From assembly GCF_014202505.1 (NCBI RefSeq), contig NZ_JACHGW010000002.1:1426001-1490000 (forward strand): a DNA stretch of 64,000 nucleotides. The letters are read 5' to 3'. This document shows positions 11,834 to 51,446 of the stretch, in pieces (within the stretch, counting starts at the first letter, position 1; every line of letters begins with the position of its first letter). The DNA comes from Armatimonas rosea (GTDB taxonomy: Bacteria > Armatimonadota > Armatimonadia > Armatimonadales > Armatimonadaceae). The position numbers were made by a program, and so were the translations under genes. The notes below the pieces were generated by a model, which did not search any database, had not been told where the DNA came from, and saw only the letters and a list, made by a program, of their open reading frames with translations.

Positions 11834-11853
11834 AGTCTTCTTTTCGCTTCTTA

Positions 11854-12020
11854 GATCGCTCCCGTTGTGATCGCTCCCATGAACGGGAGCGTCTTGCTGT
11901 CGTCGCCGGCTCCGACACGAAGGGCGCTAAGCGCCCATATGGCCGGAGGCCTTTGTGTCCGAGGCACGAGGACCGCAAGACGCCCCCCTCCCACGGGGGC
12001 GATCTGAACGGGGGCGATCA
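11854..12020. repeat. Interspersed palindromic element D with nested hairpins
   Basis: Outer arms GATCGCTCCCGTTGTGATCG and its approximate complement at the right end (about 28 bases), then GCGTCTTGC / GCAAGACGC, then an inner GGGCGCTAAGCGCCC hairpin. It shares the module GAGGCACGAGGA with family C. It separates the two genes of the PSD1-DUF1501 pair. Confidence 0.7.
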
Positions 12021-12023
12021 TAC

Positions 12024-24407: not shown

Positions 24408-25088
24408 CGCGTTCTAGTTATAGAAGACGACCCCGCGATTGCGTCTATGCTGGTCGCAGGGCTCCAAGATGTCCCCTACACCGTGGATCATGCAAGCGAT
24501 GGCGTCCGGGGGTTAGCGCTTTTGCAGGAGCAAGACTACCACCTGATCGTCCTGGATGTAATGCTCCCAGACATGAGCGGCTGGGAGGTCTGTGAGCGGC
24601 TCCGGCTCCGGCGCAACCGGACCCCCGTTCTGATGCTCAGTGCCCGCAACGCGGTCGATGACAAGATCCGGGGGCTCGATGCCGGGGCCGACGACTACCT
24701 GCCCAAGCCCTTTGAGTTTGGTGAGCTGCTCGCGCGGGTGCGGGCACTCCTGCGCCGGGATCGTATCCACCGCACGCGCACCATCCAGATCGCCGATCTA
24801 CGGATCGACACTGCCCAGCGCCGGGTCACCCGTGGCGAGCAGGAGATCGGGCTAAGCCACCGGGAGTACGAGCTTCTGGAGGCGCTCGCCAGCCATGAGG
24901 GGGTGGTGCTCAGCCGGGAGCGCATCCAGGAGACGATCTGGCAGAACGAGGGAGCCACCTCCGCCACGGTCGATGTCTATATCGGCTTGCTCCGCAAGAA
25001 GATGGACACGGGGTTCGCTCATAAGCTCATCCAGACGGTTCATGGTGCGGGCTACACGCTCCGGGCACCGCATGAGGAGGCAGTATGA
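24405..25088 (+). CDS. OmpR/PhoB-family response regulator
   Basis: A 227-residue two-domain regulator: receiver with acidic pair ED in VIEDDPA, phosphoacceptor Asp51 in IVLDVMLPD, Lys in YLPKPFEF; winged helix from about residue 128 ([42 protein letters not shown]). Overlaps the start of the following kinase by four bases, so the pair is coupled. Divergent from the surface lipoprotein run, which is a likely target. Confidence 0.93.
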
Positions 25089-26548
25089 GAGGCTCACTGC
25101 GAACCCAGCTCACGCTCTGGAACAGTGTCTCCCTGGCGCTGTTGCTCACCGGGGTGGGGGTGTTGGTGCGCTACACCGTGCGCTCCGCCCTGATGACCTC
25201 GGTGAGCCGGGCGATGGAGCGGCAGGTGGGCAAGCTCCCCTTCGGCGAGGGAGAGCAAGGTCCTGGTGCCCCCCCTGAGGGCCCCGGTGATGGTGGCGGG
25301 GGCTTTGGAATGCAGGGGAAGCCCGCGCCTCGTGGTGAGGAGGATATCACGCTGACCCCGCGGCACTTCGATCTTCAGGGCAATGCTCTTGGGTTTCGGA
25401 GCATGCTTAGCCAGGAGTCGTTTGCGGTCGCAGCCCACGAGGGGCGTCGCGACACGCGACGGATCGTGCTTCAGGGGGAGCCTATCCAGATCCTCTCCGT
25501 GCCCATGCTCCACGCTGGACGCCTCACAGGAGTTGGCCAGGTTGGCTACCGCCTGACGGAGCTCGAGGAGGCGATTGCGACCCTGGACCGAACCCTGCTC
25601 TTGCTCTTGCCCGTGGGGCTGCTCTGTGCCTCTCTGGGGGGAATCCTCCTGACACAGCGGGTACTGCGGCGGATCCATGCGGTCTCGGTCGCGGCGCAGG
25701 AGATAACCGCTCAAGTGGGAGTCGAAGACCAGGCACTCGTCCGGCGACTTCCTGTACAGGGGAGCGATGAGTTCTCCGAGCTGGCGAGTGTCCTCAACAC
25801 CCTCCTAGGGCGGCAAGAGGAGGCATGGGTGCAGCAGTACCGCGCCTTGGAGCAGCAGCGCCGCTTTACAGGAGATGCGAGCCACGAGCTGAAGTCTCCC
25901 CTCACGGTGATCAAGGGGACGACGAGCCGGGCTCTGGAGCGCACGGATGTCTTCACGCCGGAGCAGTACCAGCACTGTCTCCGGGAGATCGACCAAGCCG
26001 CCGATGCGATGGATCGCCTTGTCTCCGATCTTCTGCTCCTGGCACGCTCGGATAGCCAGCAGCTGGGACAACAGCGAATCGAGGTTCTGGCGAGCGAGAT
26101 CCTGGAGCGTGCGCTTCGCCTCACGCCCGAGACCGCTCCCCCGGTGACCCTCCAGCTCCCCGATCCTCTGGTGACCCTCTGGGGAAATGAGTGGGAGCTG
26201 ACCCGGCTCTTTACCAACCTGCTGAGCAATGCCCGTCGCTACACCTCTCCTGAGGGGAGTGTCGTGGTGACGGTCTCTGCGGAGGAGGCGTGGCAGGTGG
26301 TGCGGATCGCCGATACGGGAGTGGGGATCGCACCCGAGCACCTGCCACACCTAGGGGAGCGCTTCTACCGGGTGGATAGCTCGCGCAACCGAGGGCGCGG
26401 GGGGACGGGCCTAGGGCTCTCGATCTGCCGGAGCATTGTCGAGGCACACGGGGGGCAGCTGGTGCTCACAAGCGCACTGGGGGAGGGGACCGTGGTGACG
26501 GTCCTGCTCCCTCCTGCTCGGGAAGCAGGACCACCTCTTGCCCTCTAG
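25085..26548 (+). CDS. Membrane sensor histidine kinase (HisKA)
   Basis: A 487-residue kinase. Helix 1 spans about residues 14-30, an extracytoplasmic sensor lies between about 31 and 168 and helix 2 at about 169-190, followed by HAMP, HisKA with His267 in [13 protein letters not shown], and HATPase ([23 protein letters not shown]). The sensor loop contains a Pro/Gly-rich stretch ([15 protein letters not shown]) without a known fold, echoed in the paralogue at 29730. Its stop shares the tetramer CTAG with the convergent TP-repeat lipoprotein gene. Confidence 0.92.
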
Positions 26549-28040: not shown

Positions 28041-28937
28041 CTAGTTGCCGCCGCCGCCGCCCTGGCCGCCAAAGCCCCCGCCTTGGCCACCCTGACCACC
28101 GCCACGGCCTCCGCGTCCGCCGCCTTGGCCACCAAAACCACCCTGTCCGCCGGGGCCACCGGGACCACCGAAGCCGCCACCGGGTCCTCCGGGGCCACCC
28201 TGACCGCCACGGCCCATCATTGGCATCATGTAGCTTTGGGCGATTGTCTGCTGGTCGGCGCTGAGTACCTTGTCCGGCGTGCGCCCTTGAGCCAGCTTCG
28301 CTAGCTGGTCATCGGCGAGCTGGAGCTTGGTGGCTGCCTCGGGGCGGATTCCGGCGTCCTGCATCACCTTGAGCGCCTTGATCAGCGTGCTGAGGGCCAC
28401 CCGCTGCGGATCGGTGAGGACCGCGCTGGTGTCGGTGGTCGCCTTGCGCTCGGCCTTCTGCATGTTGGCCTGCATCTCCTGCATCATCGCCTGGAAGTCG
28501 GGACGACCTCCGGCGGCGGGGTCCGCATTCGGGTCCTGTGCCTGACGGCGGGGCATCTGGGGACGCATAGCATCCTGCATATCGTCGCGGATCAGGGCGA
28601 TCTTGCCGGCCTGGGCATCGGTCAGGTTGAGGTAGGTTGCCATCACCCGAAGCGGGATGGTTGCGGCGCTGACCTCGCGGTTCATGCCCATCATCCCACC
28701 GGGGCCACCCATCATGCCCCCCGGTCCGCCGCCAAAGCCGCCTTGTCCTCCAAAGCCACCCTGACCGCCTCCACGACCACCGCGTCCACCGCCCTGGCCG
28801 CCGAATCCTCCTTGACCGCCGGGGCCACCCTGGCCCCCGAAGCCTCCCTGACCGCCAAAGCCACCTTCTTGTGGGGGCTGTGCCAGTGCAGCGCCACCCA
28901 CCATCAATGCAACAAACGTTAAAGCCAATCGGTTCAT
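28041..28937 (-). CDS. Spy/CpxP-like LTxxQ periplasmic protein with Gly-rich ends
   Basis: A 298-residue exported protein. Signal peptide about 1-20; residues 24-85 are FGGQGG-type repeats with an RGGRGG patch and a Met-Gly patch (GGPGGMMGG); the core (about 88-240) is helical and shows two LTxxQ motifs, LTDAQ and LTDPQ, the mark of Spy/CpxP chaperones, which respond to envelope damage and metal excess; the C-terminus repeats the Gly-rich tract. AGGAG precedes the ATG at 28937, which I prefer over the upstream frame start. Divergent from a two-component system over 100 bases containing a perfect palindrome, so likely under its control. Confidence 0.8.
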   Translation of the reverse strand: MNRLALTFVALMVGGAALAQPPQEGGFGGQGGFGGQGGPGGQGGFGGQGGGRGGRGGGQGGFGGQGGFGGGPGGMMGGPGGMMGMNREVSAATIPLRVMATYLNLTDAQAGKIALIRDDMQDAMRPQMPRRQAQDPNADPAAGGRPDFQAMMQEMQANMQKAERKATTDTSAVLTDPQRVALSTLIKALKVMQDAGIRPEAATKLQLADDQLAKLAQGRTPDKVLSADQQTIAQSYMMPMMGRGGQGGPGGPGGGFGGPGGPGGQGGFGGQGGGRGGRGGGQGGQGGGFGGQGGGGGN

Positions 28938-28987
28938 CTGTTTCGTTCTCCTGGGTAGCATCTTAGCGAGAAACCATGAAGCAATAA

Positions 28988-29002: not shown

Positions 29003-29024
29003 GGATTACTTAACGGTTTGTGCC

Positions 29025-29040
29025 TACAATACAGGCAATG
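29025..29040 (+). promoter_or_regulatory. Leaderless -10 box of the second OmpR-type regulator
   Basis: TACAAT at 29025-29030, seven-base gap, ATG at 29038. It excludes the GTG at 29020, which lies upstream of the box. Confidence 0.6.
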
Positions 29041-29733
29041 GCACGTTTACTACTAGTCGAAGATGAGGAGCTCCTCGGGGAGATGATCGTGGAGGGGCTG
29101 GAGGCTGCTCGCCACGAGGTCACCTGGTGTCGCAACGGTGCGGAGGGGTTTGAGCGGGCGTGTGAGGGCGGCTGGGCGGCGATCTTGCTGGACCTGATGC
29201 TACCAGGGCTCGATGGCTGGAGTATCTGCCGACGCCTGCGGGACCGCCGCGACCCCACTCCTATCCTCATGCTCACGGCGCGGGATGAGGTGGAGGAGAA
29301 GGTACGGGGGCTGGAGCTAGGAGCCGACGACTACCTCACCAAGCCCTTTGCCTTCCCCGAGCTCAAAGCCCGGATCGCGGCGCTCCTACGGCGGGAGCGG
29401 CTCCAGCGGCGCCGGACCCTGAGTGTGGCGGACCTGGTGATCGACACGGAGCTCCACGAGGTCACGCGCGGGGGCAAGCAGGTAAGCCTCACCCGGCGTG
29501 AGTTCGATCTTCTGGAGGCGCTGGCGGCACGTGTGGGACATGTGGTGAGTAAAGAGACCCTGCGTGGGATCTGGGGCGGCGACTCGGAGGTGGGCTCCAA
29601 TACGATCGATGTCCACATGGTCTCGCTGCGCCGCAAGCTCGATAGCGACCGCTCGGAGAGTGAGCGGCTCTTTCACACGGTCTATGGGGTGGGCTATATC
29701 CTGCGCGAGCCCGCAGAGAGCGCTCCCAAATGA
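29038..29733 (+). CDS. OmpR/PhoB-family response regulator
   Basis: A 231-residue regulator: receiver with VEDEELL, phosphoacceptor Asp52 in LLDLMLPG, Lys in YLTKPFAF, and a winged helix (VSLTRREFDLLEALAARVGH, NTIDVHMVSLRRKLD, VYGVGYILREP). Overlaps the kinase by four bases. Given the operator candidate next to its promoter it may control itself and the divergent Spy-like gene. Confidence 0.93.
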   Translation: MARLLLVEDEELLGEMIVEGLEAARHEVTWCRNGAEGFERACEGGWAAILLDLMLPGLDGWSICRRLRDRRDPTPILMLTARDEVEEKVRGLELGADDYLTKPFAFPELKARIAALLRRERLQRRRTLSVADLVIDTELHEVTRGGKQVSLTRREFDLLEALAARVGHVVSKETLRGIWGGDSEVGSNTIDVHMVSLRRKLDSDRSESERLFHTVYGVGYILREPAESAPK

Positions 29734-31193
29734 AGCTCTCTCTCACCTGGCGTGCGCGCCTGCTCAACGGAGCCCTGAGTGGGCTAGCGCTCGTCGCGCT
29801 GGTGGCGCTGGCCCAGAGCCGCATCCGCACGGTGCTCTACCATGCAGTCGATGAGGCGGTGACCTCGCAGGCCCAGACCATGCTGGAGATGCACCGGCGC
29901 GAGCCCGACCAAGGCCCCCCGGAGTTTCGGCGTCCTGGTGGGTTTGGCAACGGCCCCGAGGAGCACCGAGGGCCAGACGGACAGGGGCGACCGGAGGGGC
30001 ACAACGGCCCGCGCCGGCGTGGGCCGGGTGGCCCGGGGTTTGTGATCCGCTTTGGGAGCACGGCGCTCCTGCCCCCGCGCTTCATTCCCCTGCAGCCCCG
30101 GACGGGAGAGCACCACGAGGCTCCCTGGGCACCGGAGGGAGTGGCCGCCGCGACCCGCCAAGGCACCGATCTGCGGGAGGTCCGTGGCCCCAATAACAAG
30201 ATTCTTCATGTCTACTCCGTGCGCTCCGAGGGGATCGTCCTCCAGACCGCCGCCGACCTCGACCAGACCAACCTCGCCTTGGCGGAGATTGGCAACGCGC
30301 TCTATGGGCTGATCCTGCCGGTGGGGCTGCTCATGGCGCTTCTGGGGGCCCTGCTCACCGATATCGCCTTCTCCCCGATCCGCAAGCTCACCCGTGTCGC
30401 TGCCTCGCTCCAGCCCACCAACCTGGCAGAGCGCCTGCCTGCACCGGGAGGGGGCGACACGTTCGACCAGCTGGTGACCGTCCTCAACGCGATGCTCGGG
30501 CGGCTGGAGGGGGCGTTCGTGCGCCAGAAGCGCTTCACCGCTGATGCGAGCCACGAGCTTCGGACACCTCTGGCCGTGATCAAGGCCGCGACCAGCTTCT
30601 TGTTGGAGGGCGACGATCCCCTCACGGAGCGCCAGCGCCGCACCCTCTCCCGCGCGGACCGGACCGTGGACCGTGCCAACACGCTGGTCTCGGATCTGCT
30701 ACTCCTGGCGCGCTCGGAGAACGGGACTCTGACAACCCAGCTGGAGACGGTCGAGCTCCCGGAGCTGCTCTCGGAGGCCATTCGTGCCGCGGAGGCGGGG
30801 CAGCCCTCGCCCCATGCGCCTGTCTTGCTGGATGCCGAGCCGCAGCCCATCACAACCGACCCCAAGCTGGTCCACCGCCTGATTGTGAACCTTGTCAGCA
30901 ACGCGCTCCGCCACACCGGTGCCGAGGGCAGGGTAACAGTCCATGCCTCTCTCACCGACAAGCTGGTCTTAACCATCGCGGACACCGGCGAGGGAATCGC
31001 GGCGGAGCACCTAGAGCGCCTTGGGGAGCCTTTCTACCGCCCCGATGCCTCGCGTGCCCGTGAGCAAGGCGGTGTCGGCTTGGGGCTGGCGCTGTGCAAG
31101 GAGATCGCCTCCACACTGGGCGGCGAGCTGGTGATCGAGAGCACGCTGGGCGAGGGCACCATGGTCCGGGTGAGCCTGCCCGCCGGGCATTGA
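29730..31193 (+). CDS. Membrane sensor histidine kinase with Pro/Gly/His-rich sensor
   Basis: A 487-residue paralogue of the kinase at 25085. Helix 1 about residues 12-28, an extracytoplasmic sensor to about 188, helix 2 about 190-212, HAMP, HisKA with His275 in ADASHELRTPLAV, HATPase (NLVSNALRHT, DTGEGI, GVGLGLALCKE). Sensor residues 59-104 are rich in Pro, Gly, Arg and contain several His (HRGPDGQGRPEGHNGP), a composition that could bind metal. Its last codons lie in a family A palindrome, so the end of the protein (LPAGH) is encoded by the repeat arm. Confidence 0.92.
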   Translation: MKLSLTWRARLLNGALSGLALVALVALAQSRIRTVLYHAVDEAVTSQAQTMLEMHRREPDQGPPEFRRPGGFGNGPEEHRGPDGQGRPEGHNGPRRRGPGGPGFVIRFGSTALLPPRFIPLQPRTGEHHEAPWAPEGVAAATRQGTDLREVRGPNNKILHVYSVRSEGIVLQTAADLDQTNLALAEIGNALYGLILPVGLLMALLGALLTDIAFSPIRKLTRVAASLQPTNLAERLPAPGGGDTFDQLVTVLNAMLGRLEGAFVRQKRFTADASHELRTPLAVIKAATSFLLEGDDPLTERQRRTLSRADRTVDRANTLVSDLLLLARSENGTLTTQLETVELPELLSEAIRAAEAGQPSPHAPVLLDAEPQPITTDPKLVHRLIVNLVSNALRHTGAEGRVTVHASLTDKLVLTIADTGEGIAAEHLERLGEPFYRPDASRAREQGGVGLGLALCKEIASTLGGELVIESTLGEGTMVRVSLPAGH

Positions 31194-39649: not shown

Positions 39650-40258
39650 ATGCAACAAGTACACGCGAGTGGTGCGAGCCCTTTGCCTGGCTCTGTTAAG
39701 CCACGGCTTGTCCAGGGGATGGTACGCTTTGTCACCCCTGTAGGGACGCCGATTCCCCAGCTGGAGGTGTTCTTGGACGGAAAACGGACCCGTACCAATG
39801 CGCAGGGGGAGGCTTTCTGGAGGGGCATCCGTAGCAACTATCTCTACGAAGGCCCTGAGATCGCGATTCGGGATCGAAACTGGGTCTGGTCGCACCAGCG
39901 AGAGCCCCTGTCCGGCGATCTGGAGCGGCGGTTTGTGGAGCAAGGGAGGATGTACCACCGAGCGATTGTGGCGCGTCGGCGCGAGGTTGCTTTTTTCTAC
40001 TACACGGTGAGTGGACCAACCCGTCCCAACTTCGCCTGCTACCTGCTGGAGCTTCATCCCGTCGATCCGTCGGTTCCCAAGCCCACTCCCTATGGCAATG
40101 TCTACCTGACGATCCGACCGGGGCGCTACCGGGTACGGCTGGGAGTGGAGCGGCGGGTGGTGGCTCCGGGCGAGAGGCACGTCATCTGGAGCTGGCTCCC
40201 GGAGACACTGACATTTCGGGGGGGCGAGACACGCTCTCGGCGGTTTGTTGTTCCCTAA
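39650..40258 (+). CDS. Hypothetical beta-rich protein
   Basis: A 202-residue protein with no signal peptide and no family I recognise. The first part (GMVRFVTPVGTPIPQLEVFL, KRTRTNAQGEAFWRG) resembles a carboxypeptidase-regulatory-like or prealbumin-like sandwich, in which a peptide chain carries variable decorations; the rest is strand-rich (RYRVRLGVERRVVAPGERHV). It is alone and convergent with the ABC exporter, overlapping it by 77 bases, which is unusual in this window and questions one of the two ends. Confidence 0.65.
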   Translation: MQQVHASGASPLPGSVKPRLVQGMVRFVTPVGTPIPQLEVFLDGKRTRTNAQGEAFWRGIRSNYLYEGPEIAIRDRNWVWSHQREPLSGDLERRFVEQGRMYHRAIVARRREVAFFYYTVSGPTRPNFACYLLELHPVDPSVPKPTPYGNVYLTIRPGRYRVRLGVERRVVAPGERHVIWSWLPETLTFRGGETRSRRFVVP

Positions 40259-41969
40259 GTGTTTTGTTTGTTAGCGCGAAGACACGGTGCATGCCGCGCA
40301 GGGCGCTCTCGCGGTGGGTGACCAGCAAGACCGTGCGGCCCTCCATCAGGCGCTCCATCGCGCCGAGAACCTCCAGCTCGGTGGTGGCATCGAGGGCGCT
40401 GGTGGGCTCGTCGAGGAGCAGGATCGGGGCATCGCGCAGGAAGGCGCGGGCGAGACCGACCCGCTGACGCTCCCCGCCGGAGAGGGCCGCGCCGCGCTCC
40501 CCGACCTTGGTCTGGTAGCCCTCGGGGAAGCGCTGGATGGCATCGTGGAGCTGTGCGGCCTTGGCGGCGGCCTCGATCTGCGCCTGGGTCGCGCCCGGCT
40601 TTCCCACCGCGATATTTTCTGCGAGGGTTCCGGGGAGGAGCACGGTCTCTTGAAAGACCACCGCGAGCTGTGCGCGGAGCTCGGGGAGTCTGAGCTGGGT
40701 GATCGGGATGCCGTCGAGGGAGATCGTCCCTGCCGTGGGGGAGTAGAGCCGCAGGAGCAGGGAGAGGAGGGTCGATTTCCCGCTGCCCGTCTCTCCCACG
40801 ATCCCGATCCGCTCACCCGGCGCGACCCGTAGCGAGACCCCTTCGACGATCGGGCGGCGGGGGTCGTAGCCAAAGGAGATGCCCTCAAAGCACAGAGCAC
40901 CGCGCACGGGCTGGGGGAGCGCCGTGGGGGCAGTGGTCTCGGGGACCTCGGCGGGCTCGCTCAGAAGGGTCGTGGCGCGCTCCAGACCGACAAGCTGGTT
41001 TTGCAGGCTCGCCCACTTCTTCCCGAGGGTCCTGAGCGGGCTGTAGACCTGGTTGAGGTAGTGCAGGCCAAGCAGCACCTGGCCCACGGTAAGCGTCCCG
41101 CGCTGCGCCGCCGCCACCCCGAGATAGAGCGCCGCCGAGGTCCCGAGCGCGGTCAGGGTCTGGACTCCCATCCCAAAGAGGCCATCGAGGAGCGCGATCC
41201 GCAGGCGTGTCTTCACCGCCTTTTCCGATGCCTCCGCAAAGCGCTGTGTCTGTGCGTCCTCGATCCCAAAGGCCTTGACACTGGTGAGCGCTCCCAGGGT
41301 TGCTTGGACGATCCCCAGCGCCTCGCTCTCTTGCTGCTTGGCGGTGCGCGAGGCCGCTTTGAGGCCGGGACGGGTCGTGCGGGCGGCGAGCAGGAGGGGG
41401 GGAGCGAGCGCCACCCCGACCCAGCCGAGGCTCGTGTCTAGCCGAAAGAGCGCGGTGAGCATCAGCGCCAGGGTCGTGAGTGCCGTGAGGACCGGCAGGG
41501 CACCATCGAGCAAGAACCACTCGATCGACTGGGCATCGGATTGGATGCGGTAGAGCGCGTCGGTGGTGCCACGCTCGATATGCCGCGCCAGCGAGAGCCG
41601 CTGCGCCGCCGCAAAGAGCCGGGCACGCAGGTCACGGATCAGCCGCTGGCCGAGGCCTGTGGAGAGGAGCGTACTGGCGAGGCTCTGGCCCTGCGCCAGC
41701 AGGGTCACCAGCAAGCTTCCTGCACAGAGCGCGGGTAGGGCATTGCCCGAAAACGGGGCGAGCCACGTGGGCAGGGCTCGTTTTTGGAGCACGACATCCA
41801 GCGCGGTCTGGAGCGGAATCGGGGCGAGCACCGCCAGCCCCGCCCCGAGCAGCTCCAGCAAGAGTAGGAGTACGAGCTGCGGCCAGAACCGCCGCGCCAG
41901 CCGCAGAACCTCAGACAACCTACCCCCTAGCCCCCGTCGGGTACCCTCTGGGTGGGGGGATTTTTTCAA
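40182..41969 (-). CDS. ABC exporter (fused permease and ATPase)
   Basis: A 595-residue half-transporter of the MsbA/LmrA type. Six helices lie in about 25-320 and an ATPase domain in 345-580 with Walker A GETGSGKST, Q loop VVFQETVL, signature LSGGERQRVGLARA, Walker B ILLLDEPT and the H loop VLLVTHRES. As a homodimer it could export lipids, peptides or drugs. The TTG at 41969 overlaps the VTC gene by 50 bases; a TTG at 41918, right after the VTC stop, is an alternative that drops 17 low-complexity residues. Likely cotranscribed with CotH and VTC. Confidence 0.9.
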   Translation of the reverse strand: MKKSPHPEGTRRGLGGRLSEVLRLARRFWPQLVLLLLLELLGAGLAVLAPIPLQTALDVVLQKRALPTWLAPFSGNALPALCAGSLLVTLLAQGQSLASTLLSTGLGQRLIRDLRARLFAAAQRLSLARHIERGTTDALYRIQSDAQSIEWFLLDGALPVLTALTTLALMLTALFRLDTSLGWVGVALAPPLLLAARTTRPGLKAASRTAKQQESEALGIVQATLGALTSVKAFGIEDAQTQRFAEASEKAVKTRLRIALLDGLFGMGVQTLTALGTSAALYLGVAAAQRGTLTVGQVLLGLHYLNQVYSPLRTLGKKWASLQNQLVGLERATTLLSEPAEVPETTAPTALPQPVRGALCFEGISFGYDPRRPIVEGVSLRVAPGERIGIVGETGSGKSTLLSLLLRLYSPTAGTISLDGIPITQLRLPELRAQLAVVFQETVLLPGTLAENIAVGKPGATQAQIEAAAKAAQLHDAIQRFPEGYQTKVGERGAALSGGERQRVGLARAFLRDAPILLLDEPTSALDATTELEVLGAMERLMEGRTVLLVTHRESALRGMHRVFALTNKTLREQQTAESVSRPPEMSVSPGASSR

Positions 41970-42600
41970 TGGCTGTCCGGTACTTTGAGAACGACTCCGG
42001 GAGCAGGCCGAGCTCCGCCGTGAGCTGTGCCAGTGCGGCGGGGAGGGTGTGCTCGAACTTGATCTCCAGGATGCGGCCTGCGGTGAGCGGAACCCCTGTA
42101 GGCACCATGCCAGGCAGAATAAAGTCCTGGCAGGCGCTTGCCTGGATATCGTGGTCGAGGGTCAGCCGCACCTCCGCTCCCCCGAGCTCCCCGACAAAGG
42201 CATCGCGGGTGTAGGAGACCAGGCGGGTGGGCGCAAGGCTCTGCTTGTGGATGGCGCGCTGGAACCAGCTCGGCTTGCCCGCCGGGAGCGCCAGGCACGC
42301 CTCGGGCGCGAGGGCTGTGCGTCGCTTGTGGACCTTCCCCGGCTCGGGCTTGGCCTTGAACTCCGCAAAGACCGTCTCTGTCGTGCTGTAGCGCCGCAGG
42401 CGCCACTTGCCCTGCACCTCGCGCCGGTAGGAGGCCAGGTCGGGGGTGTCGAGGTAGAGGCTCGCCACGGTGTAGCGTCCCCCGTAGGGATCGGGGGGGA
42501 GTAGCGTGCGAACCACGCTGAGCAGTGTCTCCGCCGCGCCTTCTGGCACCAGATACTTGCGCTCAAATCCCGCGCGGACAATCTCACCGTCGGTGCTCAT
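41920..42600 (-). CDS. VTC-domain (polyphosphate polymerase-like) protein
   Basis: A 226-residue cytosolic protein of the VTC/triphosphate tunnel fold: FERKYLVP, the basic block SYRREVQGKWRLRRYSTTET, FAEFKAKP, SYTRDAF, ILEIKFEHTLP and the final SKY. The charged strands line a tunnel that binds phosphate chains; in yeast Vtc4 it makes polyphosphate from ATP. Bacterial members occur next to CotH-kinase genes, as here, but their product is unproven. GGAGGAGG precedes the start, two bases after the CotH stop. The tail PPPRGYPTGARG may stem from a low-complexity repeat. Confidence 0.88.
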   Translation of the reverse strand: MSTDGEIVRAGFERKYLVPEGAAETLLSVVRTLLPPDPYGGRYTVASLYLDTPDLASYRREVQGKWRLRRYSTTETVFAEFKAKPEPGKVHKRRTALAPEACLALPAGKPSWFQRAIHKQSLAPTRLVSYTRDAFVGELGGAEVRLTLDHDIQASACQDFILPGMVPTGVPLTAGRILEIKFEHTLPAALAQLTAELGLLPESFSKYRTAIEKIPPPRGYPTGARG

Positions 42601-42602
42601 CG

Positions 42603-44633
42603 CTAGAATCCTCCTCCAAAGTCGGGGGGCGGCAGGACCTGCAGCAGGCCCGCTCCCACCTCCGCGACTGTCAGCTTACCGTCCTTGTTGGTGTCCCAGC
42701 TCACGCCCCACTTTGCCATCGTCGCCGTAAAGGTCGCCACAGGAACACTGTCTTTCGCCTTGAGCGCGCTCCAGAGCTGCGGCCCAAGAAACTGCGCTGG
42801 CCCAAAGCCGCCCCCGAGCACACCGCTGATCCCTGCCTGGAGCTCGTCGCGGGTGAGGGTGCTGTCGTGGTTCTTGTCGCAGAACTCCGCGCCTTTTTTC
42901 CAGGCCGCGTTGAAGGCCGTGAGGGTTGGTGCCTCGCCCGCTCCGGTGAGCTGGAGGAAGCTGGTCCCTAGCATCTGGGCCGGATCGAACCCACCGGGCC
43001 CGCCGGGGCCACCCGGGCCGCCCCCACCGGGGCCAAAGCCCCCCTGCGGGATAACGCCCTCTTCCTTGCCGTCGAGCTGTGCGAGCACCGATGCGGAGCG
43101 CTGGGCGAAGAAGGTCTTGAGGTCGTTGGTCCCGCCCATCCCGCCAGGGCCCCCCGGCCCGCCGCCGCCGCGCCGTCCACCACCCTGACCGCCCCCGTTA
43201 GGGCCGCTGCCACGGCTGGCGACAAACGCTTCCAGCTCCGCGCGGGTGACTTGCTTATCGTGGTTGCTGTCTGCTTGGTCAAACAAGGGCTGGAGGCGCT
43301 CGGGGAGCTCGGCCTTGAAGAGCTTGCCATCGCCATTCTTATCGAAGGAGAGAAGCTGATTGACTTGCTCGGCGGGATCGGGCGCGCCGCCACCAAACTC
43401 ACCAGGGGGCGGGCCAAATCCACCTTCTCCGCCACGCTCGCCGCGTCCGCCACCGGGGAAGCCTCCGCCTGGCCCACCCGGTCCGCCGGGGCCGAAGCCG
43501 CCGCCAGCGTCCTTGGGATCGAAGGCCATGATGGGCTTTGCCGCCGCCGCCACGGAGTCGTGGAGGGCGTTAAGCTCGGTCATGAGCTTGGCACCCTCGC
43601 GGCAGGACTTCTCATAGGCCGCCCGAAACGCTGGGATCGCCAGAAGACGATCCGTGAGCTTGCTCTCGCCGCTGTAGGGCTTCTTGATCGAGAGGTGCAC
43701 CGCATCGCCGATCGGGAAGCCGCCAAAGGCCATGTTCAGGTCCCAGGGCAGGTAGACAAACTTATTGGTCTTGGGGTTGAGCCAGATGTAGAAGTTGTGG
43801 CCCATCCCAAGGAAGTTGTCCCCGTTGCTGGTGACCGCGGTGGCGGCGAGGAACTTGGCAAAGCCCTCGGTATCCAAGAAGCTGCCGATCTCTTTCTGAA
43901 ACGTGGCTTCGTCGGCTTGGTGCACGAGCTTGGCGAAGGCGATCAGGCGGGCCTGCTCGGTGGCGCTGGGCTTGCCCTTGGGGTCGTAGCCTTTTTCGTA
44001 GCGGGACCAGTCGTCGCCCAGGTAGGTGATCCCACCCCGTGCGCCCTCGGGCTTGAGGAGCATCCCCTCGCCGGTGCCGTAGTGCTCCTTGAGGAAGTTG
44101 GAGTCCACTTGCTGCACCAGGGTGTAGAGCCCCAGCGACTTCTCCTCTCCGCCGAGCGTGATCCCGACCTTTGCGAGGGTGGTGCGCGGCGACGGTAGCC
44201 CCATGCGGCGGAAGATCTCGTAGGCGAGGGTCTCGCGGATCTGGGTACGGTCGGAGAAGTTGTTGTTGAGGTTGAGCTTGGTGATTCCCTCGTGGCTCTG
44301 GCCCTTGACCTGCTTGTTGAAGTCGATCTTGAAGGGGCGCTTGAGGCCGCGGGAGCTGCTCATGTAGCTGGAGTTGCCCTTGAAGCGCAGCCCGACCACG
44401 TAGTCCTTGCCATCGACCGTGACCGTGGACTTGACCTCCGGGAACTCCAGGTCCATCGGGCCGAAGCCCTGGGGCCGCGACGGGCTCATGCTATCCCACT
44501 GCTCTTGTGTCAGGCTCAGGTGGAGCGTGTGCACCGTCGTCGGGGCAAAGAAGGTCGCCCCGGTCTGCCCCTGCGCCAGAGCAGGGGCCGCGACCAGCGC
44601 GATCAGCGAGGTAAGAGGATACAGAGTGTTCAT
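42603..44633 (-). CDS. Secreted CotH-kinase protein with EF-hands
   Basis: A 676-residue exported protein. Signal peptide about 1-20; CotH protein-kinase domain about 35-380 (GLRFKGNSSYMSSSRGLKRPFK, KLNLNNNFSDRTQIRETLAY, VQQVDSNFLKEHYG, YLPWDLNMAFG); EF-hand loops DKNGDGKLFKAE, DSNHDKQVTRAE, DKNHDSTLTRDE and DTNKDGKLTVAE spread through Gly/Pro-rich linkers. CotH kinases phosphorylate spore-coat proteins in Bacillus and use unusual ATP sites; here a calcium-bound matrix kinase is plausible. The adjacent VTC protein suggests a polyphosphate link. Start at 44633 after TAGACT; the longer frame is unlikely. Confidence 0.88.
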   Translation of the reverse strand: MNTLYPLTSLIALVAAPALAQGQTGATFFAPTTVHTLHLSLTQEQWDSMSPSRPQGFGPMDLEFPEVKSTVTVDGKDYVVGLRFKGNSSYMSSSRGLKRPFKIDFNKQVKGQSHEGITKLNLNNNFSDRTQIRETLAYEIFRRMGLPSPRTTLAKVGITLGGEEKSLGLYTLVQQVDSNFLKEHYGTGEGMLLKPEGARGGITYLGDDWSRYEKGYDPKGKPSATEQARLIAFAKLVHQADEATFQKEIGSFLDTEGFAKFLAATAVTSNGDNFLGMGHNFYIWLNPKTNKFVYLPWDLNMAFGGFPIGDAVHLSIKKPYSGESKLTDRLLAIPAFRAAYEKSCREGAKLMTELNALHDSVAAAAKPIMAFDPKDAGGGFGPGGPGGPGGGFPGGGRGERGGEGGFGPPPGEFGGGAPDPAEQVNQLLSFDKNGDGKLFKAELPERLQPLFDQADSNHDKQVTRAELEAFVASRGSGPNGGGQGGGRRGGGGPGGPGGMGGTNDLKTFFAQRSASVLAQLDGKEEGVIPQGGFGPGGGGPGGPGGPGGFDPAQMLGTSFLQLTGAGEAPTLTAFNAAWKKGAEFCDKNHDSTLTRDELQAGISGVLGGGFGPAQFLGPQLWSALKAKDSVPVATFTATMAKWGVSWDTNKDGKLTVAEVGAGLLQVLPPPDFGGGF

Positions 44634-44676: not shown

Positions 44677-44964
44677 TCAAGAGAAGTAGGGACGGAGCAG
44701 CGGGACAACAAGCACAAGGGGGCCAATTGTCAGGGCACAGCATAGCCGCAAATCCATGCCCGCTTCGTGCATCGCCCCGACGGAGACGGCGATCCCCAAG
44801 AGGAAGTATCCCAGGAGAATGGAGCGTGAGCGGGCGCTTAGACGCCGGGGAGCGAGCTGGCGAGCCAGTCGCTGATCGAACTCGGGCGAGAGAGTAGGGG
44901 CCACGGGTGTGGCCAGGGACTGGCGCAGGCGCTGGTCTAATTTCTCGGAGTCAGGCATCCTCAT
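44677..44964 (-). CDS. Small membrane protein, possible anti-sigma factor
   Basis: A 95-residue protein: a charged helical N-terminus (EKLDQRLRQSLATP, FDQRLARQLAPR) and two membrane helices (SILLGYFLLGIAVSVGAM, LCCALTIGPLVLVVPLL). The start overlaps the sigma stop by 14 bases, so the two are coupled. Gene order sigma then small membrane protein suggests an anti-sigma factor that holds the sigma at the membrane, though the usual zinc anti-sigma motif (HxxxCxxC) is absent. CotH follows about 40 bases later on the same strand. Confidence 0.6.
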   Translation of the reverse strand: MRMPDSEKLDQRLRQSLATPVAPTLSPEFDQRLARQLAPRRLSARSRSILLGYFLLGIAVSVGAMHEAGMDLRLCCALTIGPLVLVVPLLRPYFS

Positions 44965-45523
44965 AACCTTTCTTTTCAAGGAGGGCACGCAGGGTGTGGC
45001 GTGCCCGGTGGAGATACGACTTGACGGTGTTCTGCGGGACGCCCAGAAACGTGGCGATCTCTGCGGTGCTATAGTCCATCCAGTAGTGCAGACGTAGAGC
45101 TGACTGGTAGACCTCAGGGAGGTGGACCATACACTCCGAGAGCACCTGATCCCGACCTAGGTCCTGCACCGTCTCAAGGGGGTCCCCGTCGGGTGCCGAT
45201 ACCTCGGTGAGGGTCTGGTAGCTAACATGCGGGGCACGGTACCGCACTCGGGCTTTGACATTGAGTGCTTGGTTGAAGGTAATCCGGTAGATCCAGGAGC
45301 TGAACTTCGCCTCGCGACGAAACGTGGGCAAGGAGTAGTGGACTCGCAAGAACACCTCTTGAGCTACCTCCTCGGCCTCTCCGATAAAGTTTGGCCCCAG
45401 GATCGAGACTGCCAGCTGAAAGACCCGTTCTCGGTAACGGTGGACGAGCTCCTGAAAGGCACGCGCGTCTTTCTGTTGACAGTAGCGGACAACAAGCTCT
45501 TCATCCGTACTATCAGTATCCAT
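44951..45523 (-). CDS. RNA polymerase sigma factor, ECF (sigma-E type)
   Basis: A 190-residue ECF sigma: region 2 (RAFQELVHRYRERVFQLAVS, AEEVAQEVFLRVHYSLPTF, WIYRITFNQALN) and region 4 (LHYWMDYSTAEIATFLGVPQ, NTVKSYLHRARHTLRALL). It directs RNA polymerase to envelope-stress promoters when released. It overlaps the upstream small protein and is coupled to the downstream candidate anti-sigma. CotH/VTC downstream are candidate targets. Confidence 0.93.
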   Translation of the reverse strand: MDTDSTDEELVVRYCQQKDARAFQELVHRYRERVFQLAVSILGPNFIGEAEEVAQEVFLRVHYSLPTFRREAKFSSWIYRITFNQALNVKARVRYRAPHVSYQTLTEVSAPDGDPLETVQDLGRDQVLSECMVHLPEVYQSALRLHYWMDYSTAEIATFLGVPQNTVKSYLHRARHTLRALLEKKGYEDA

Positions 45524-45899
45524 TATTGACACGAGAGCCGGCGGAGAAGGCGTAGAGAAGCCCGCCCCCGATAAAGGCCACGGGCAGGGGCGCGGGCCAG
45601 TAGGATCGCATCGAGGGGAGCAGCCAGAGGGTCAGCATCGCGCCGAGGCCGAAGCACAGAAGAACTACCCCGATGAGCAGGCCGGTGCGGTAGTCGGGTG
45701 GCCGGGCTGTCTTGACAAAGAGAGGCTCAATCGGTAGCTCAGGAAGGGGAATATCCTTCGCAATTGCGGCAAGACGCTCCTCATGCAAGATATCGATATA
45801 GCGCTGCCTCTCGCGGAACTTCAGGTAGTAGTAGCCCAGAAAAGCGGCGGCAAGTGCCAGGACGATAATACCGTCCCCGATGCTGTGAGTTTGATCCAT
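45513..45899 (-). CDS. Small membrane protein
   Basis: A 128-residue protein: helix at residues about 8-27 (DGIIVLALAAAFLGYYYLKF), a charged stretch (RERQRYIDILHEERLAAIAK) and two more helices (TGLLIGVVLLCFGLGAMLTLWLL, PVAFIGGGLLYAF). It heads the ECF operon, its stop overlapping the sigma start, so may serve as a sensor or anti-sigma partner. Similar DUF6249-like proteins accompany ECF sigma factors. AAGGAA precedes the start. Confidence 0.7.
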   Translation of the reverse strand: MDQTHSIGDGIIVLALAAAFLGYYYLKFRERQRYIDILHEERLAAIAKDIPLPELPIEPLFVKTARPPDYRTGLLIGVVLLCFGLGAMLTLWLLPSMRSYWPAPLPVAFIGGGLLYAFSAGSRVNNGY

Positions 45900-46020: not shown

Positions 46021-48732
46021 ATGCGTTCACGACTCTGGATGTGGGTTGCACCGCCGTTGGTGGCGGGCTCGCTCGCGCTGGCACAGAAGCCCCAGCCTGC
46101 ACCAACCCCCACGACGATCTTCAAGGCCGACTGCCTTCCCTGCCATAGCGCTGCGGAGCGTGAGGGCGGGCTGAACCTAGAGGGGACTCTCACCCCGGCG
46201 CAGGCGAAGCGTATCCTGGAGCGGGTGCGCGGCGAGGGCGGAAAGCCGCAGATGCCGCCGACGGGAAAGCCGCTTCCCGCGCAGAAGCAAGCCGCGCTGG
46301 CCCGCTGGGAGAAGGGCCTGGCAGAGACCCGGCACTGGGCCTACGAGCCGGTCAAGCGCCCGCTGGAGCCGCCGGTCGAGGTGAGCGGGATCGATAGCTT
46401 TGTGAAGGCGCGGCTGGTCAATGAGAAGCTCGGCTTTGCGCCCCAGGCCGATAAAACAACCCTGATTCGGCGCGTGACACTGGACTTGACGGGGTTGCCG
46501 CCGACGCCTGCCGAGGTCGATGCCTTTCTCGCCGACACGCGCCAGGATGCCTACGCACGGCTCGTGGACCGCTTGCTGGCCAATCCCCACTACGGCGAGC
46601 GCATGGCCCTGCCCTGGCTAGATGCCGCGCGCTACGCCGACTCCAACGGCTTCCAGCAAGACGGCGACACGTTCCAGTATGTCTGGCGGGACTGGGTGGT
46701 GAAGGCCTTTAACAAGAACATGCCCTTTGACCAGTTCACCATTGAGCAGCTCGCGGGGGACCTGCTGCCGAGGGCGACTCAGGACCAGCAGATCGCAACG
46801 GGCTTCAACCGCTGTCACCTGCTCAACGGCGAGGGCGGCGCGATCCCCGAGGAGCAACGCAATGTGATTGTCTTCGACCGGGTGGATGTGACGGCGACGA
46901 CATTTCTGGGGCTGACGATGGCCTGTGCCCAGTGCCACGACCACAAGTACGATCCCCTCAGCCAGAAAGACTACTACCGGTTCTTTGCCTACTTCAACAA
47001 TGTCCCCGAGAGCGGGGTGCCGTCGGGGGGCGGCCAGTACCGGATCGCCGAGCCGTTTGTCACCGTGCCGGAGAGCGACGAGCAACGTAAGAAGCTCGAC
47101 CAGCTCAACAAGATGCTCGACATCAGCAAGATGGAGCTCAAGGGGCTGGAGGCGGAGGCGAAACCAACCGCGGTCCCGGTGACTCTCTCGCCCTGGAAGC
47201 TGGCCGCCAGCCTCCCCGCCGCGAGCTTCGATGCGGCGTTTGACACTCTCAAGCCGCTCGGGGAGCTCACGGGGGGCGCAGAGCATCCCGAGTGGGCCGA
47301 CGGCGCAGTGCAGTCCCTCCCCGACGGCGATAACACGGCGCACTATCTGGTACGCACGGTCACGGTGCCGCAGGCGACCACGCTCTTGCTCAGCCTGGGT
47401 AGCGACGATGCCATTAAGCTCTGGGTGAACGGGAGACAGGTGCTCTCGAAGAAGATCACGCGCGGGGCGCTGCCCGATCAGGAGCAGGTGGCGGTCACGC
47501 TATTGCCCGGAGCCAACATCCTGGTGCTCAAGATTGTCAATGGTGGGGGCGCATCGGGGTTCTACTTCAAGCCCGGCGCTCCGGTCTCTCCGGCACTGGC
47601 CGCGACCCGCGAGCGTGTGGCGTCGCTGACCAAGGAGCGCGATGCCCTCCAAGCGAGCCTCCCGCGGGTGATGGTGATGTCCGATGCCCGTCCGCGCAAG
47701 ACCACCGTCCTGATCCGCGGCCAGTACCTCTCGCCAGGTGAGGAGGTCACCTGCGGCACACCTACCTACTTCCCCCAGCCGGTGGGCGGCAATCGCTTGG
47801 AGCTGGCCCGCTGGCTGGTGCGTCGTGAGAACCCGCTCACGGCGCGGGTCTTTGTCAACCGGCTCTGGCAGCAGTTCTTTGGGATTGGCTTGGTCAAGAC
47901 CAGCGAGAACTTCGGCCTGCTCGGGGAGAAGCCCAGCCACCCGGAGCTCCTCGACTGGCTGGCGGCGGAGTTCATGGACTCGGGCTGGGATATCAAGCAC
48001 CTCGTGCGGCTGATCGTCACCAGCCAGACCTATAAACAGTCGTCCAAAGTCTCTGCCGAGCTACGCAAGCGCGACCCGGAAAACCGCCTGCTCGCCCGTG
48101 GTGCCCGTTTTCGGCTACCATCGCTGATCCTGCGCGATCTGGCCCTGGCAAGCTCTGGCCTCCTCAACGATAAGATCGGGGGCAAGCCGGTCTACCCGTA
48201 CCAGCCCAAGGGCATCTGGGACAGCCTCTCGATCACCAAGGAGCGCGACTTCTCCTATCCCCAGTCCACGGGGCGCGATCTCTACCGCCGCAGCCTCTAC
48301 ACCTTCTGGCGGCGCACGGTGGGGCCGGGCAATATGTTCGATGCCTCTTCGCGCCAGGCCTGTAAAGTGCGCGCCTCGCTCACCAGCACCCCGCTTCACG
48401 CCCTCACCACCCTCAACGACATCACCTGGGTCGAGGCCAGCCGCGTGCTTGCGGAGAAGCTGATGCTGGAGTCGGCCAACCCCAACCAGCGCCTCACGTC
48501 CGCCTTCCGCCGCATCTGCGCCCGGCGGCCGTCGGCGCGGGAGCTGGACATCCTGCGCAGCAGCTACGAGCGCACCCGAGTCGCCTACGAGCTAGACCCC
48601 GAGCAAGCGACTGCCTTTCTGTCGATGGGGGAGAGCAAGCGCAATCCCAACCTCGCTCTCGCCGAGCACGCGGCGCTCTCTCAAGTCTGTCTGTCGATCT
48701 TTAATCTGGATGAGGCACTGACGAAAGAATGA
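46021..48732 (+). CDS. PSD1 planctomycete-type cytochrome c (DUF1549-DUF1553)
   Basis: A 903-residue exported protein, paralogue of 12024-14936 without its PA14 domain. Signal 1-21, heme motif C38-LP-C41-H42, DUF1549 about 120-330 with [11 protein letters not shown], a jelly-roll-like domain about 430-510 ([21 protein letters not shown] in two parts), DUF1553 about 590-880. It likely hands electrons to or from a secreted oxidation of saccharides. Its stop overlaps the next start as ATGA. First gene of a three-gene operon with the NHL and DUF1501 genes. Confidence 0.92.
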
Positions 48733-49814
48733 CCTCCCCCGCCTTCGCACCACTCAGGCACCCCCTCCGGCTCCGCGAAGGGGGGCGTTTTGGTGACGAA
48801 ACTCACGGCGCGTTTTACCCTCTTCGCGAAGCCGGAGAGGGTCGCGCTCTAAGGCGCGGGGAGAGGCAAGCCGGAGAGGGTCGCCGTCTCAGCGGCGGGG
48901 AGAGGTTTGCTTGGCGTCTCGTGTCGGGCTGGGCCAAGCCCGCGAGCCTGCCGATCAAGAACGGGCACGGGCTGGTCTTTGATAAGAGCGGCTATCTCTA
49001 CCTGCTCACGGACCATGCCGATGCCAACCTACTGGTCTTCGACCCGGCGACGGGCCGCGTGGTGCACCAGAAGAATCTCGGGCTCACCGGCGGACACGGG
49101 CTCTCGATTGTTGAGGAGAGCCAGCGCCAGGTGCTCTATTTGACCTGCCTCAACACACACCGGGTGCTCAAGACCACGCTTCAAGGCGAGGTGCTCGCCG
49201 AGTGGGGCTGGCCCAAGGAGACGGGCAAGTACAAGAGCGCCGACGAGTACAAGCCGTCGTGGACGCTTCATCTACCGGATGGCTCGTTCTGCGTCTTGGA
49301 TGGCTATGGCAAGGACTACATCATCCGCTACGACGCCAATGGAAACTACGCCGGCTACTTCGGTGGCAACGAGGGCGGGATTCCACACTGGGGGCCGCAC
49401 GGTGGCTATGTCGATAAAGGCACGCTTCTGATCGCCATGAGCGACCAGCGCTCCATCGCCCGCTGGAGCCGCGACGGCAAGAAGCTGGCGGAGTGGTCCC
49501 TCCCCGGCTCCGACCCGCGCATGCTGCGTCCCTGGGGGAAATTGTGGATTGTCGGGCACCTGGGCGGCAAGTGGCCGCAGGACCGCAACGTCCCCGGCTA
49601 CGTCTCCGTGCTGGATAGCAACTTCAAAGTCGTCGCCAATATCGGCGGCACCAAGCCCGAGTACGATAGAAGCGGCAAGCTCACGCCCATGGAGACCCTC
49701 CCCGACACCCCGTTCCGCCGCCCCCACGATGCCATTGTCGGCCCCGACGGCAGCCTCTATGTCGGGCAGTTCGACTCTGGCGATCAGCCACTTTTGAAGT
49801 TGGAGAGGATATAG
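48729..49814 (+). CDS. NHL/six-bladed propeller protein with repeat-derived N-terminus
   Basis: A 361-residue protein. After about residue 75 it is a six-bladed beta-propeller of the NHL/SMP-30-like kind (GHGLVFDKSGYLYLLTDHAD, GHGLSIVEESQRQVLYL, SWTLHLPDGSFCVLDGYGKD, RRPHDAIVGPDGSLYVGQFD). The first 60 or so residues (REGGRFGDETHG, REAGEGRALRRGERQAGEGR) are translated from three family B palindromic units that run between the ATGA start and the propeller, replacing an expected signal peptide. Whether it is still exported is open. In the PSD1-NHL-DUF1501 operon. Confidence 0.75.
   Translation: MTSPAFAPLRHPLRLREGGRFGDETHGAFYPLREAGEGRALRRGERQAGEGRRLSGGERFAWRLVSGWAKPASLPIKNGHGLVFDKSGYLYLLTDHADANLLVFDPATGRVVHQKNLGLTGGHGLSIVEESQRQVLYLTCLNTHRVLKTTLQGEVLAEWGWPKETGKYKSADEYKPSWTLHLPDGSFCVLDGYGKDYIIRYDANGNYAGYFGGNEGGIPHWGPHGGYVDKGTLLIAMSDQRSIARWSRDGKKLAEWSLPGSDPRMLRPWGKLWIVGHLGGKWPQDRNVPGYVSVLDSNFKVVANIGGTKPEYDRSGKLTPMETLPDTPFRRPHDAIVGPDGSLYVGQFDSGDQPLLKLERI
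48758..48905. repeat. Interspersed palindromic element, family B copy 2 (multiple units)
   Basis: Units at about 48758-48786 (inverted), 48818-48866 and 48869-48905 with CCCTCTTCGCGAAGCCGGAG followed by AGGGTCGC, a variable hairpin and GCGGGGAGAGG. Hairpin stems differ in sequence but remain paired. The block is in frame with the propeller gene. Confidence 0.8.
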
Positions 49815-49815
49815 C

Positions 49816-49953
49816 CGCCCAATGGAATTAGGCGTCGACAGTGGCTTCGTTCCTCAGCCGCAAAGCCCGTGCCGGGCTGGGGATAATTTTGTTAGCCCGG
49901 CACGGGCTTTGCGGCACTTCGTGCCACTGCAGACGCCGGTTTTCAACCGGCGG
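49816..49953. repeat. Interspersed palindromic element, family F copy 2 with inner hairpin
   Basis: The ends match 671-746. The inner hairpin has perfect 21-base arms 49858-49878 and 49894-49914 (CCGCAAAGCCCGTGCCGGGC) with a 15-base loop, followed by GGCACTTCGTGCC, which also appears in family C. It ends at the ribosome site of the DUF1501 gene. Confidence 0.88.
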
Positions 49954-49964
49954 GAGCGAACGAT

Positions 49965-51446
49965 ATGAACCCGGAATTTGAACGCGATCTCGGCATCACC
50001 CGCCGACAGTTTTTTGGTAAGAGCGCCACCGGAATCGGCATGGCCGCGCTCGCAAGCCTGCTCGGCGAAGAAACCGTCCACGCCCACTCCCCCTTCGCGA
50101 AGCCGGAGGGGGTCGGCGGTGGTGCCGCCGGGGGGAGGCTAGACGCGGGGGGCAACGCCAAAGCCAAGCGTGTGGTCGTCCTCTGGCAGGGCGGTGCACC
50201 CTCGCACGTCGATCTTTTCGACTACAAGCCAGGGCTGGAGAAGCTGCGCGGCACCGATGTGCCGGACTCGGTGCGCAAGGGGACACGCCTCTCGACCATG
50301 ACCAGCGGGCTCAAGAAGTTCCCCGTCCTGCCGTCGATCAAGCCCTTCAAGGCCTACGGCAAGTCCGGGATGATGCTCTCGGAGCTGCTGCCGCATATCG
50401 GGTCGCTCGCCGACGATATCTGCCTGATCCACTCCATGCACACCGAGGCGGTGAACCATGCGCCCGGCGTGACCTTCCTGCTCACCGGCTCTCAGATTCC
50501 CGGGCGGCCCAGCATGGGCGCGTGGGCGACCTACGGCCTAGGGAGCATGAGCAAGGACCTGCCCGCCTTTGTGGTCATGACCTCCACCGACACCGGGCGC
50601 ACCTGCGGCCAGCTCTTCTACGACTACTACTGGGGCAGCGGTTTTCTGCCGTCCAAGTTCCAGGGCGTCCGCTTCCGGAGCGAGGGCGAGCCGGTGCTCT
50701 ACCTCAAAAACCCCGACGGCCTCCCCGACGGGCTGCGGCGCAAGCAGCTCGACGATATCGGGGCGCTCAATGCCCAGCATTTAAGCGAGTACGGCGACCC
50801 AGAGATCGAGACCCGCATCTCCCAGTACGAGCTTGCCTACAAGATGCAGGCATCGGTGCCGGACTTGCTGGCGATCGAGAAGGAGCCCGCCCATATCCTG
50901 GAGCGCTACGGGAAAGATGTCCACCGACCCGGCAGCTACGCGAGAAACTGCCTGCTGGCGCGTCGGCTCTTGGAGCGCGGGGTTCGCTTTGTCCAGCTCA
51001 TGCACTCGGGCTGGGACCAGCACGGCAACCTCCCCACCCAGCTCGCCGAGCAGTGCCGCGACACCGATCAGTCATCGGCGGCACTGATCCTAGACCTGAA
51101 AGAGCGCGGCCTGCTCGACGACACCATCGTCCTCTGGGCCAGTGAGTTTGGGCGCACTCCGTTCGTGCAGGGCGACATGACCAAGGCTGCCTACGGCCGC
51201 GATCACCTCGGCTCGGTCTACAGTATGTGGGCGTGTGGCGGCGGCTTCAAAGGCGGCTATGTCCACGGTGCCAGCGATGACTTCGCCTACAACCCCGTCA
51301 AAGACCCCATGGACGGTCACGATCTCCAAGCCACTATTCTGCACCAGCTCGGAATCGACCACACCAAGCTCACCTACCGCTTCCAGGGACGCGATTTCCG
51401 CCTGACAGATGTCTTTGGCACTGTCCAGAAGAAGCTGATTGTGTAG
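49965..51446 (+). CDS. DUF1501 secreted protein with repeat insertion
   Basis: A 493-residue twin-arginine-exported protein (TRRQFFGKSATGIGMAALAS). The DUF1501 core begins near residue 66 (VVVLWQGGAPSHVDLFDYKP) and includes IHSMHTEAVNH, GRPSMGAWATYGLG, and WASEFGRTPFVQGD with GRDHLGSVYSMW. Residues about 42-62 (PFAKPEGVGGGAAGGR) are encoded by a family B element between the signal and the domain. Third gene of the operon. Paralogue of 10373-11833. Confidence 0.88.
   Translation: MNPEFERDLGITRRQFFGKSATGIGMAALASLLGEETVHAHSPFAKPEGVGGGAAGGRLDAGGNAKAKRVVVLWQGGAPSHVDLFDYKPGLEKLRGTDVPDSVRKGTRLSTMTSGLKKFPVLPSIKPFKAYGKSGMMLSELLPHIGSLADDICLIHSMHTEAVNHAPGVTFLLTGSQIPGRPSMGAWATYGLGSMSKDLPAFVVMTSTDTGRTCGQLFYDYYWGSGFLPSKFQGVRFRSEGEPVLYLKNPDGLPDGLRRKQLDDIGALNAQHLSEYGDPEIETRISQYELAYKMQASVPDLLAIEKEPAHILERYGKDVHRPGSYARNCLLARRLLERGVRFVQLMHSGWDQHGNLPTQLAEQCRDTDQSSAALILDLKERGLLDDTIVLWASEFGRTPFVQGDMTKAAYGRDHLGSVYSMWACGGGFKGGYVHGASDDFAYNPVKDPMDGHDLQATILHQLGIDHTKLTYRFQGRDFRLTDVFGTVQKKLIV
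50089..50138. repeat. Family B element within the DUF1501 gene
   Basis: CCCCCTTCGCGAAGCCGGAG, GGGGTCGGCGG, loop TGGTG, CCGCCGGGGGGAGG. It matches 3628-3675 except for the variable hairpin and is read in frame. Confidence 0.8.

Follow-up and report, generated by a model that had tools for sequence, protein, structure and literature searches.

A secreted CotH-kinase-fold protein, a VTC-type triphosphate tunnel protein, and an ABC exporter are encoded side by side in Armatimonas rosea, and the same exporter subfamily adjoins VTC and CotH genes in every genome of the phylum in which it was found. We put the probability at roughly 45%, a little under even odds, that the three together make up an envelope polymer unit in which the exporter carries the product of VTC, probably polyphosphate, outward. 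The window, meaning the whole stretch of DNA analyzed, comprises 64,000 nucleotides of the A. rosea genome.

Gene organization of the locus

The genes lie on the minus strand and are transcribed in the order 128-aa membrane open reading frame (ORF), ECF sigma factor, 103-aa ORF, CotH, VTC, and ABC exporter. The CotH gene (42603 to 44633, minus strand; start ATG at 44633) encodes 676 aa and is separated by only 2 bases from the gene for the 226-aa VTC-type protein, a likely polyphosphate polymerase (41920 to 42600, minus strand; Pfam VTC, 3.6e-25). The exporter gene (40182 to 41969, minus strand) encodes 595 aa, with a membrane domain fused to an ATPase (ABC_membrane, 6e-33; ABC_tran, 1e-36). 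Its start codon is either TTG 41969, giving a 50-base overlap with VTC, or TTG 41918, 1 base past the VTC stop codon. A search of the whole A. rosea genome returned one VTC gene and one CotH gene. A sequence-only reading of the window had described a CotH with EF-hands, a VTC gene 2 bases on, and an adjoining ABC exporter; all of this is borne out by Pfam and by the coordinates, and the gene group is confirmed.

The ECF sigma gene (44951 to 45532, minus strand; TIGR02937, 1e-23) is overlapped at its start by the 128-aa membrane ORF (45513 to 45899, minus strand; weakly DUF6249-like by Pfam, membrane assignment by hydropathy). It also overlaps the 103-aa ORF (44677 to 44988, minus strand), which has two hydrophobic helices by hydropathy and no Pfam match, ends 43 bases before CotH, and could, at a guess from its position, encode an anti-sigma factor. 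The group had been described as standing entirely behind the ECF sigma gene. The sigma gene does lie upstream on the same strand in the window, but it is not conserved with the unit: a search of 11 further genomes from this family found no close relative, and no ECF sigma gene was found upstream at any other ABC-linked locus within the contig sequence available. We therefore rejected it as a conserved part of the unit. The upstream genes elsewhere, with ORFs read by eye, are a TetR-like gene in genomes G127 and G128 and a toxin-antitoxin-like pair in G010.

Elsewhere in the window, a Gly-rich secreted LTXXQ (Spy/CpxP-like) protein (28041 to 28961, minus strand) is encoded divergently from a two-component system, consisting of a response regulator (29020 to 29733, plus strand) and a histidine kinase (29730 to 31193, plus strand). 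In G009 and G010, the exporter is likewise followed by two-component genes; the kinase encoded in G009 shares 36% identity with this histidine kinase and 41% with another window kinase (25085 to 26548). The window further contains two PSD1-type cytochrome/DUF1501 gene sets, one at 10373 to 14936 (minus strand; Pfam confirmed) and one at 46021 to 51446 (plus strand; by eye).

CotH protein and its EF-hand loops

The CotH protein begins with a hydrophobic, signal-like stretch ending in AAPALAQ (read by eye), which is followed by the CotH domain at aa 82 to 348 (43590 to 44390, minus strand; Pfam CotH, E value of 3.6e-47). The structure model, which is confident over most of the core, best matched Bacillus cereus CotH (5jd9; E value of 2.5e-18; TM score of 0.76 on the target). 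D272 (43818 to 43820, minus strand) and D298 of a PWD motif (43740 to 43742, minus strand) line up with aspartates of 5jd9, the latter with its own PWD, and both are invariant in all 12 aligned CotH proteins of the phylum. We take them to be the catalytic aspartate pair of the active site. A CotH without ATP-binding residues would have counted against the sequence-only reading, and these two residues are kept. At position 174, 9 of the 12 proteins and 5jd9 have Glu and 1 of the 12 has Asp, but the window protein and that of G029 have Gln, which may make kinase activity of the window CotH less certain. Like the spore-coat kinase CotH of B. cereus and Bacillus subtilis (5jd9, 5jda), the window protein has the fold and the two aspartates. 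Unlike it, the window protein has a signal-like N terminus and a Gly-rich C-terminal half with EF-hands, and no spore genes surround its gene.

EF-hand loops were sought with our own 12-residue pattern (D at position 1, D/N/S at 3, D at 5, a hydrophobic residue at 8, and E at 12). Four canonical loops were found, all on the minus strand: DKNGDGKLFKAE at aa 431 (43308 to 43343), DSNHDKQVTRAE at aa 455 (43236 to 43271), DKNHDSTLTRDE at aa 586 (42843 to 42878), and DTNKDGKLTVAE at aa 647 (42660 to 42695). When the protein was shuffled, at least four loops appeared in 0 of 2,000 trials (mean, 0.027). Pfam EF-hand models also matched the window CotH above the cutoff (best, 2.1e-12) and, of 10 additional proteins scanned, four (those of G009, G127, G128, and G129). 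Loops 1 and 2 lie between Gly-rich stretches, and loops 3 and 4 lie inside a predicted folded helical part (aa ~551 to 666; pLDDT mostly 68 to 92). The earlier description of four loops in Gly-rich linkers is thus right in the number of loops and for the first pair, but not for the second.

Across the 13 CotH proteins tested, 12 had at least one canonical loop, in N-terminal positions, C-terminal positions, or both. A loop was present in 6 of 7 ABC-linked proteins (none in G010) and in 6 of 6 proteins of the DUF4956 group, a count that includes G051, in which the locus spans two contigs. Two or more loops occurred only in the window genome, G127, G128, and G129. Shuffled versions of these proteins yielded a single loop by chance in ~2 to 4% of cases, so a lone loop carries little evidential weight. 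Loops were common whether the partner was ABC or DUF4956, and we therefore rejected EF-hands as a mark of the exporter variant. For the "calcium control" that had been read from the EF-hands, the same distribution leaves a guess.

VTC protein

The VTC model (pLDDT of 88) found its best PDB match in yeast Vtc4 with both Foldseek and VIA-align. Against Vtc4 (3g3r_A), the Z score was 19.5 (root mean square deviation of 2.7 over 208 residues), whereas the highest-scoring tunnel enzyme outside VTC reached 15.9, and the nine top Foldseek rows were all VTC tunnel domains. A profile of 12 VTC sequences of the phylum likewise matched yeast Vtc4 (1.5e-11). Residues K15, R67, R69, K82, K92, R132, and R145 stand opposite Vtc4 K200, R264, R266, K281, K294, R361, and R373, and the seven positions are invariant or nearly so in the 12 aligned sequences. 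In yeast, these tunnel residues presumably have a catalytic role. E179, K181, and K206 are also invariant in the family; the profile alignment to Vtc4 stops short of this region, in which we would look for the counterparts of the C-terminal Lys and of Vtc4 E426, which we take to be the metal-binding Glu. On sequence and model, the protein is a credible polyphosphate polymerase.

In the yeast VTC complex, the Vtc4 polymerase is coupled to membrane translocation. The window protein resembles it in the tunnel fold and the tunnel basic residues and, by inference, in synthesis next to a membrane passage. In contrast to the yeast complex, it has no SPX domain by Pfam and no membrane helices of its own by hydropathy, and the passage would be provided by a separate ATP-driven exporter. 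A PPK1-type kinase is also encoded in the window genome and was present in 13 of 16 genomes searched, 12 of them among the 15 genomes with VTC by Pfam. Because most VTC genomes carry this kinase, VTC would not be needed for ordinary storage polyphosphate.

The exporter takes the place of DUF4956

Neighborhoods were compared in 291 Armatimonadota genomes, incomplete drafts among them. VTC was found by Pfam in 15 genomes, and our own profile added two divergent copies (G122 and G126), both beside DUF4956, for a total of 17 loci. The exporter subfamily occurred in 7 of the 291 genomes, which stand for few independent lineages and are not independent counts; all 7 had VTC and CotH adjoining, and within the phylum the subfamily was confined to VTC loci. 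Linkage in related genomes had been named beforehand as the refutation test, and the linkage was found in 7 of 7. The order was CotH-VTC-ABC in the window genome, G009, G010, and G029 and VTC-ABC-CotH in G127, G128, and G129.

Nine other VTC loci carry DUF4956, a small membrane protein, at the exporter's place. CotH is adjacent in G090, G178, G198, G199, and G122. In G051, one contig end carries CotH and the start of VTC, and a second contig end carries the remainder of VTC together with DUF4956; in G136 and G126, DUF4956 lies beside VTC and no CotH was seen; and in G259, the DUF4956 locus lies at a contig end. In the remaining locus (G252), the contig ends inside or just past VTC, with three CotH genes before it. 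DUF4956 occurred in 15 of the 291 genomes and in none of the seven exporter genomes. In the window genome, PF16316 (DUF4956) was not found, and the ABC exporter stands at its place. One family (f9) includes both kinds, DUF4956 in G136 and ABC in G127 to G129. On plasmids of other phyla, 3 VTC loci were found, all with DUF4956, and none of these three records had the exporter. In the VTC tree (17 rows, 4 starred of 14 branches, 3 changes), support was too poor to count replacements of DUF4956 by ABC.

CotH genes are repeated at some loci. In G252, a run of several CotH genes, three of them Pfam confirmed, lies ahead of the contig-end VTC (L105, 1501 to 8040), and two tandem CotH genes, the first truncated where the contig stops, precede VTC in G009 (L021, 10654 to 13054). 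In G122, an EF-hand CotH is followed by a strongly diverged VTC that the Pfam search missed and then by DUF4956 (L109, 3329 to 5835); this VTC may have lost activity.

Features of the exporter

By its sequence, the exporter is of the type with fused membrane and ATPase domains, MsbA/HlyB-like. Its nucleotide motifs GETGSGKS, LSGGE, and LLLDEP, read in the alignment, are intact; GETGSGKS is the Walker A motif. An exporter profile gave 899 to 1,105 bits for the seven linked genomes (G010 as two pieces, 554 and 481) and 540 for the next genome. Since this profile was built from six of the linked copies, the window protein alone was used as a second query: the five full-length linked copies scored 500 to 540 bits, the best unlinked protein tested scored 386, and the partial G010 pieces reached 370 and 280. 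A quick tree of 30 rows, from which the two G010 pieces were left out, placed the six linked exporters on one side of a branch (SH-aLRT of 94). The neighbor of this clade is an Indioceanicola plasmid exporter, the closest relative outside the phylum, with no VTC or CotH nearby.

Basic residues R197, R200, R255, R257, R313, and K318 were kept in all six linked exporters, and each occurred in no more than 17% of the 24 unlinked ones. Among linked-invariant positions, 6 of 15 basic residues versus 11 of 153 others were linked specific (Fisher P = 0.0013 in a post hoc test). An anionic cargo fits this overrepresentation of basic residues among the linked-specific positions of the membrane domain. 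In MsbA, basic residues in similar places presumably hold the lipid A phosphates. The net charge of the membrane domain was not raised (mean, 7.5 in linked exporters versus 9.1 in unlinked relatives); as a sign of anionic cargo, net positive charge failed, and only the position-specific test was positive.

Proposed role of the unit and alternative explanations

In the scheme that we propose, cytosolic VTC would make a polyphosphate chain from ATP, and the dedicated ABC exporter would move this anionic chain across the cytoplasmic membrane, a job that would fall to DUF4956 in the usual version of the module. Outside, the secreted EF-hand CotH would act on or with the VTC product; calcium-loaded EF-hands would stabilize CotH and may bind it to calcium-polyphosphate, and its kinase fold would phosphorylate surface targets. 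We infer VTC activity, polyphosphate as the product, and the outward direction, the last from the exporter fold together with the secreted CotH. ABC and DUF4956 would transport the same VTC product, because they interchange at a constant CotH-VTC pair with a credible polymerase. Action of CotH on the exported product is speculative. A bolder extension, in which exported polyphosphate would be the phosphoryl or energy source of the secreted kinase and the EF-hands would tie CotH to surface calcium-polyphosphate, appears improbable to us.

We know of no ABC-type polyphosphate exporter. The TetR-like gene that leads the unit in G127 and G128 counts against polyphosphate export, such a gene at the head of a unit being usual for small-molecule efflux. 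The exporter could instead carry some other cargo (a lipid-linked glycan, a peptide, or a small molecule) that is modified or protected by CotH and VTC, with VTC supplying phosphate groups or polyphosphate that stays inside the cell. This is the most serious competitor, although we consider it rather unlikely. Besides the TetR-like gene, it draws on the best unlinked relatives in the phylum (G245 and G020), which lie among glycan-type genes (ORFs by eye), and on the plasmid relative. The latter (L101, 5494 to 7362) lies beside YcaO- and TfuA-like genes (by eye), possibly a modified-peptide cluster, from which the ancestral cargo may have been a peptide. However, only CotH, VTC, and ABC recur in the seven units, with no further conserved biosynthetic gene seen, and ABC and DUF4956 are mutually exclusive.

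A second explanation, which we regard as distinctly less probable, follows the role suggested for CotH of Pel clusters: the unit would assist the assembly of surface polysaccharide or biofilm, with CotH phosphorylating components of the matrix or the synthase and with VTC and ABC tuning the system. Genes for CotH, a polyphosphate polymerase, and DUF4956 are found next to pel genes in streptococci, clostridia, and bifidobacteria (PMC7112168), and a CotH-VTC-DUF4956 set lies inside a polysaccharide cluster on a Pseudobutyrivibrio plasmid. Against this, inspection of the genes flanking the unit, both in the window and across the part of the linked loci that was read, turned up no polysaccharide synthase gene. 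That the exporter is an unrelated neighbor is very unlikely: exporters with this fold are widespread (a match at an E value of 1e-100 in 279 of the 291 genomes), but the same subfamily, a single clade, occupies 7 of 7 uncut VTC loci without DUF4956, in two gene orders and with overlapping or abutting genes, so chance adjacency was rejected.

Relation to known systems and significance

As reported previously, genes for CotH, a polyphosphate polymerase, and DUF4956 stand next to one another as an accessory set in the Pel polysaccharide clusters of Gram-positive bacteria, and the authors suggest that CotH may serve regulation through phosphorylation (PMC7112168). The sequence-only reading held that CotH-VTC pairs co-occur in bacteria without function; the co-occurrence is indeed known, but this published set has to be added. 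As in the Pel set described there, CotH adjoins the polyphosphate polymerase and the third gene encodes a membrane protein. In contrast, the third gene here is an ABC exporter rather than DUF4956, pel genes are missing, and the CotH EF-hands stand in a Gly-rich context. In Clostridium perfringens, the NELoc-2 locus combines two VTC genes, CotH, and sigma and anti-sigma genes (PMC2879425, PMC11677781). Its membrane partner is a 222- to 226-aa protein annotated as tubulin/FtsZ, which is probably DUF4956, whereas the partner in the window is the ABC exporter. No report of a VTC-linked ABC exporter was found in the open-access literature (one library searched). As far as that literature shows, the CotH-VTC-DUF4956 set is already known, and the exporter in the place of DUF4956 is the new part.

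If the exporter carries the product of VTC, it would be an ABC-type polyphosphate exporter, and its exchange with DUF4956 would point to DUF4956 as a translocator. If polyphosphate feeds CotH, this would answer how an extracellular bacterial kinase works where ATP is scarce. The exchange makes the unexplained CotH-VTC-DUF4956 set, which occurs in Pel clusters and probably in the C. perfringens locus, testable by part-swapping in laboratory strains.
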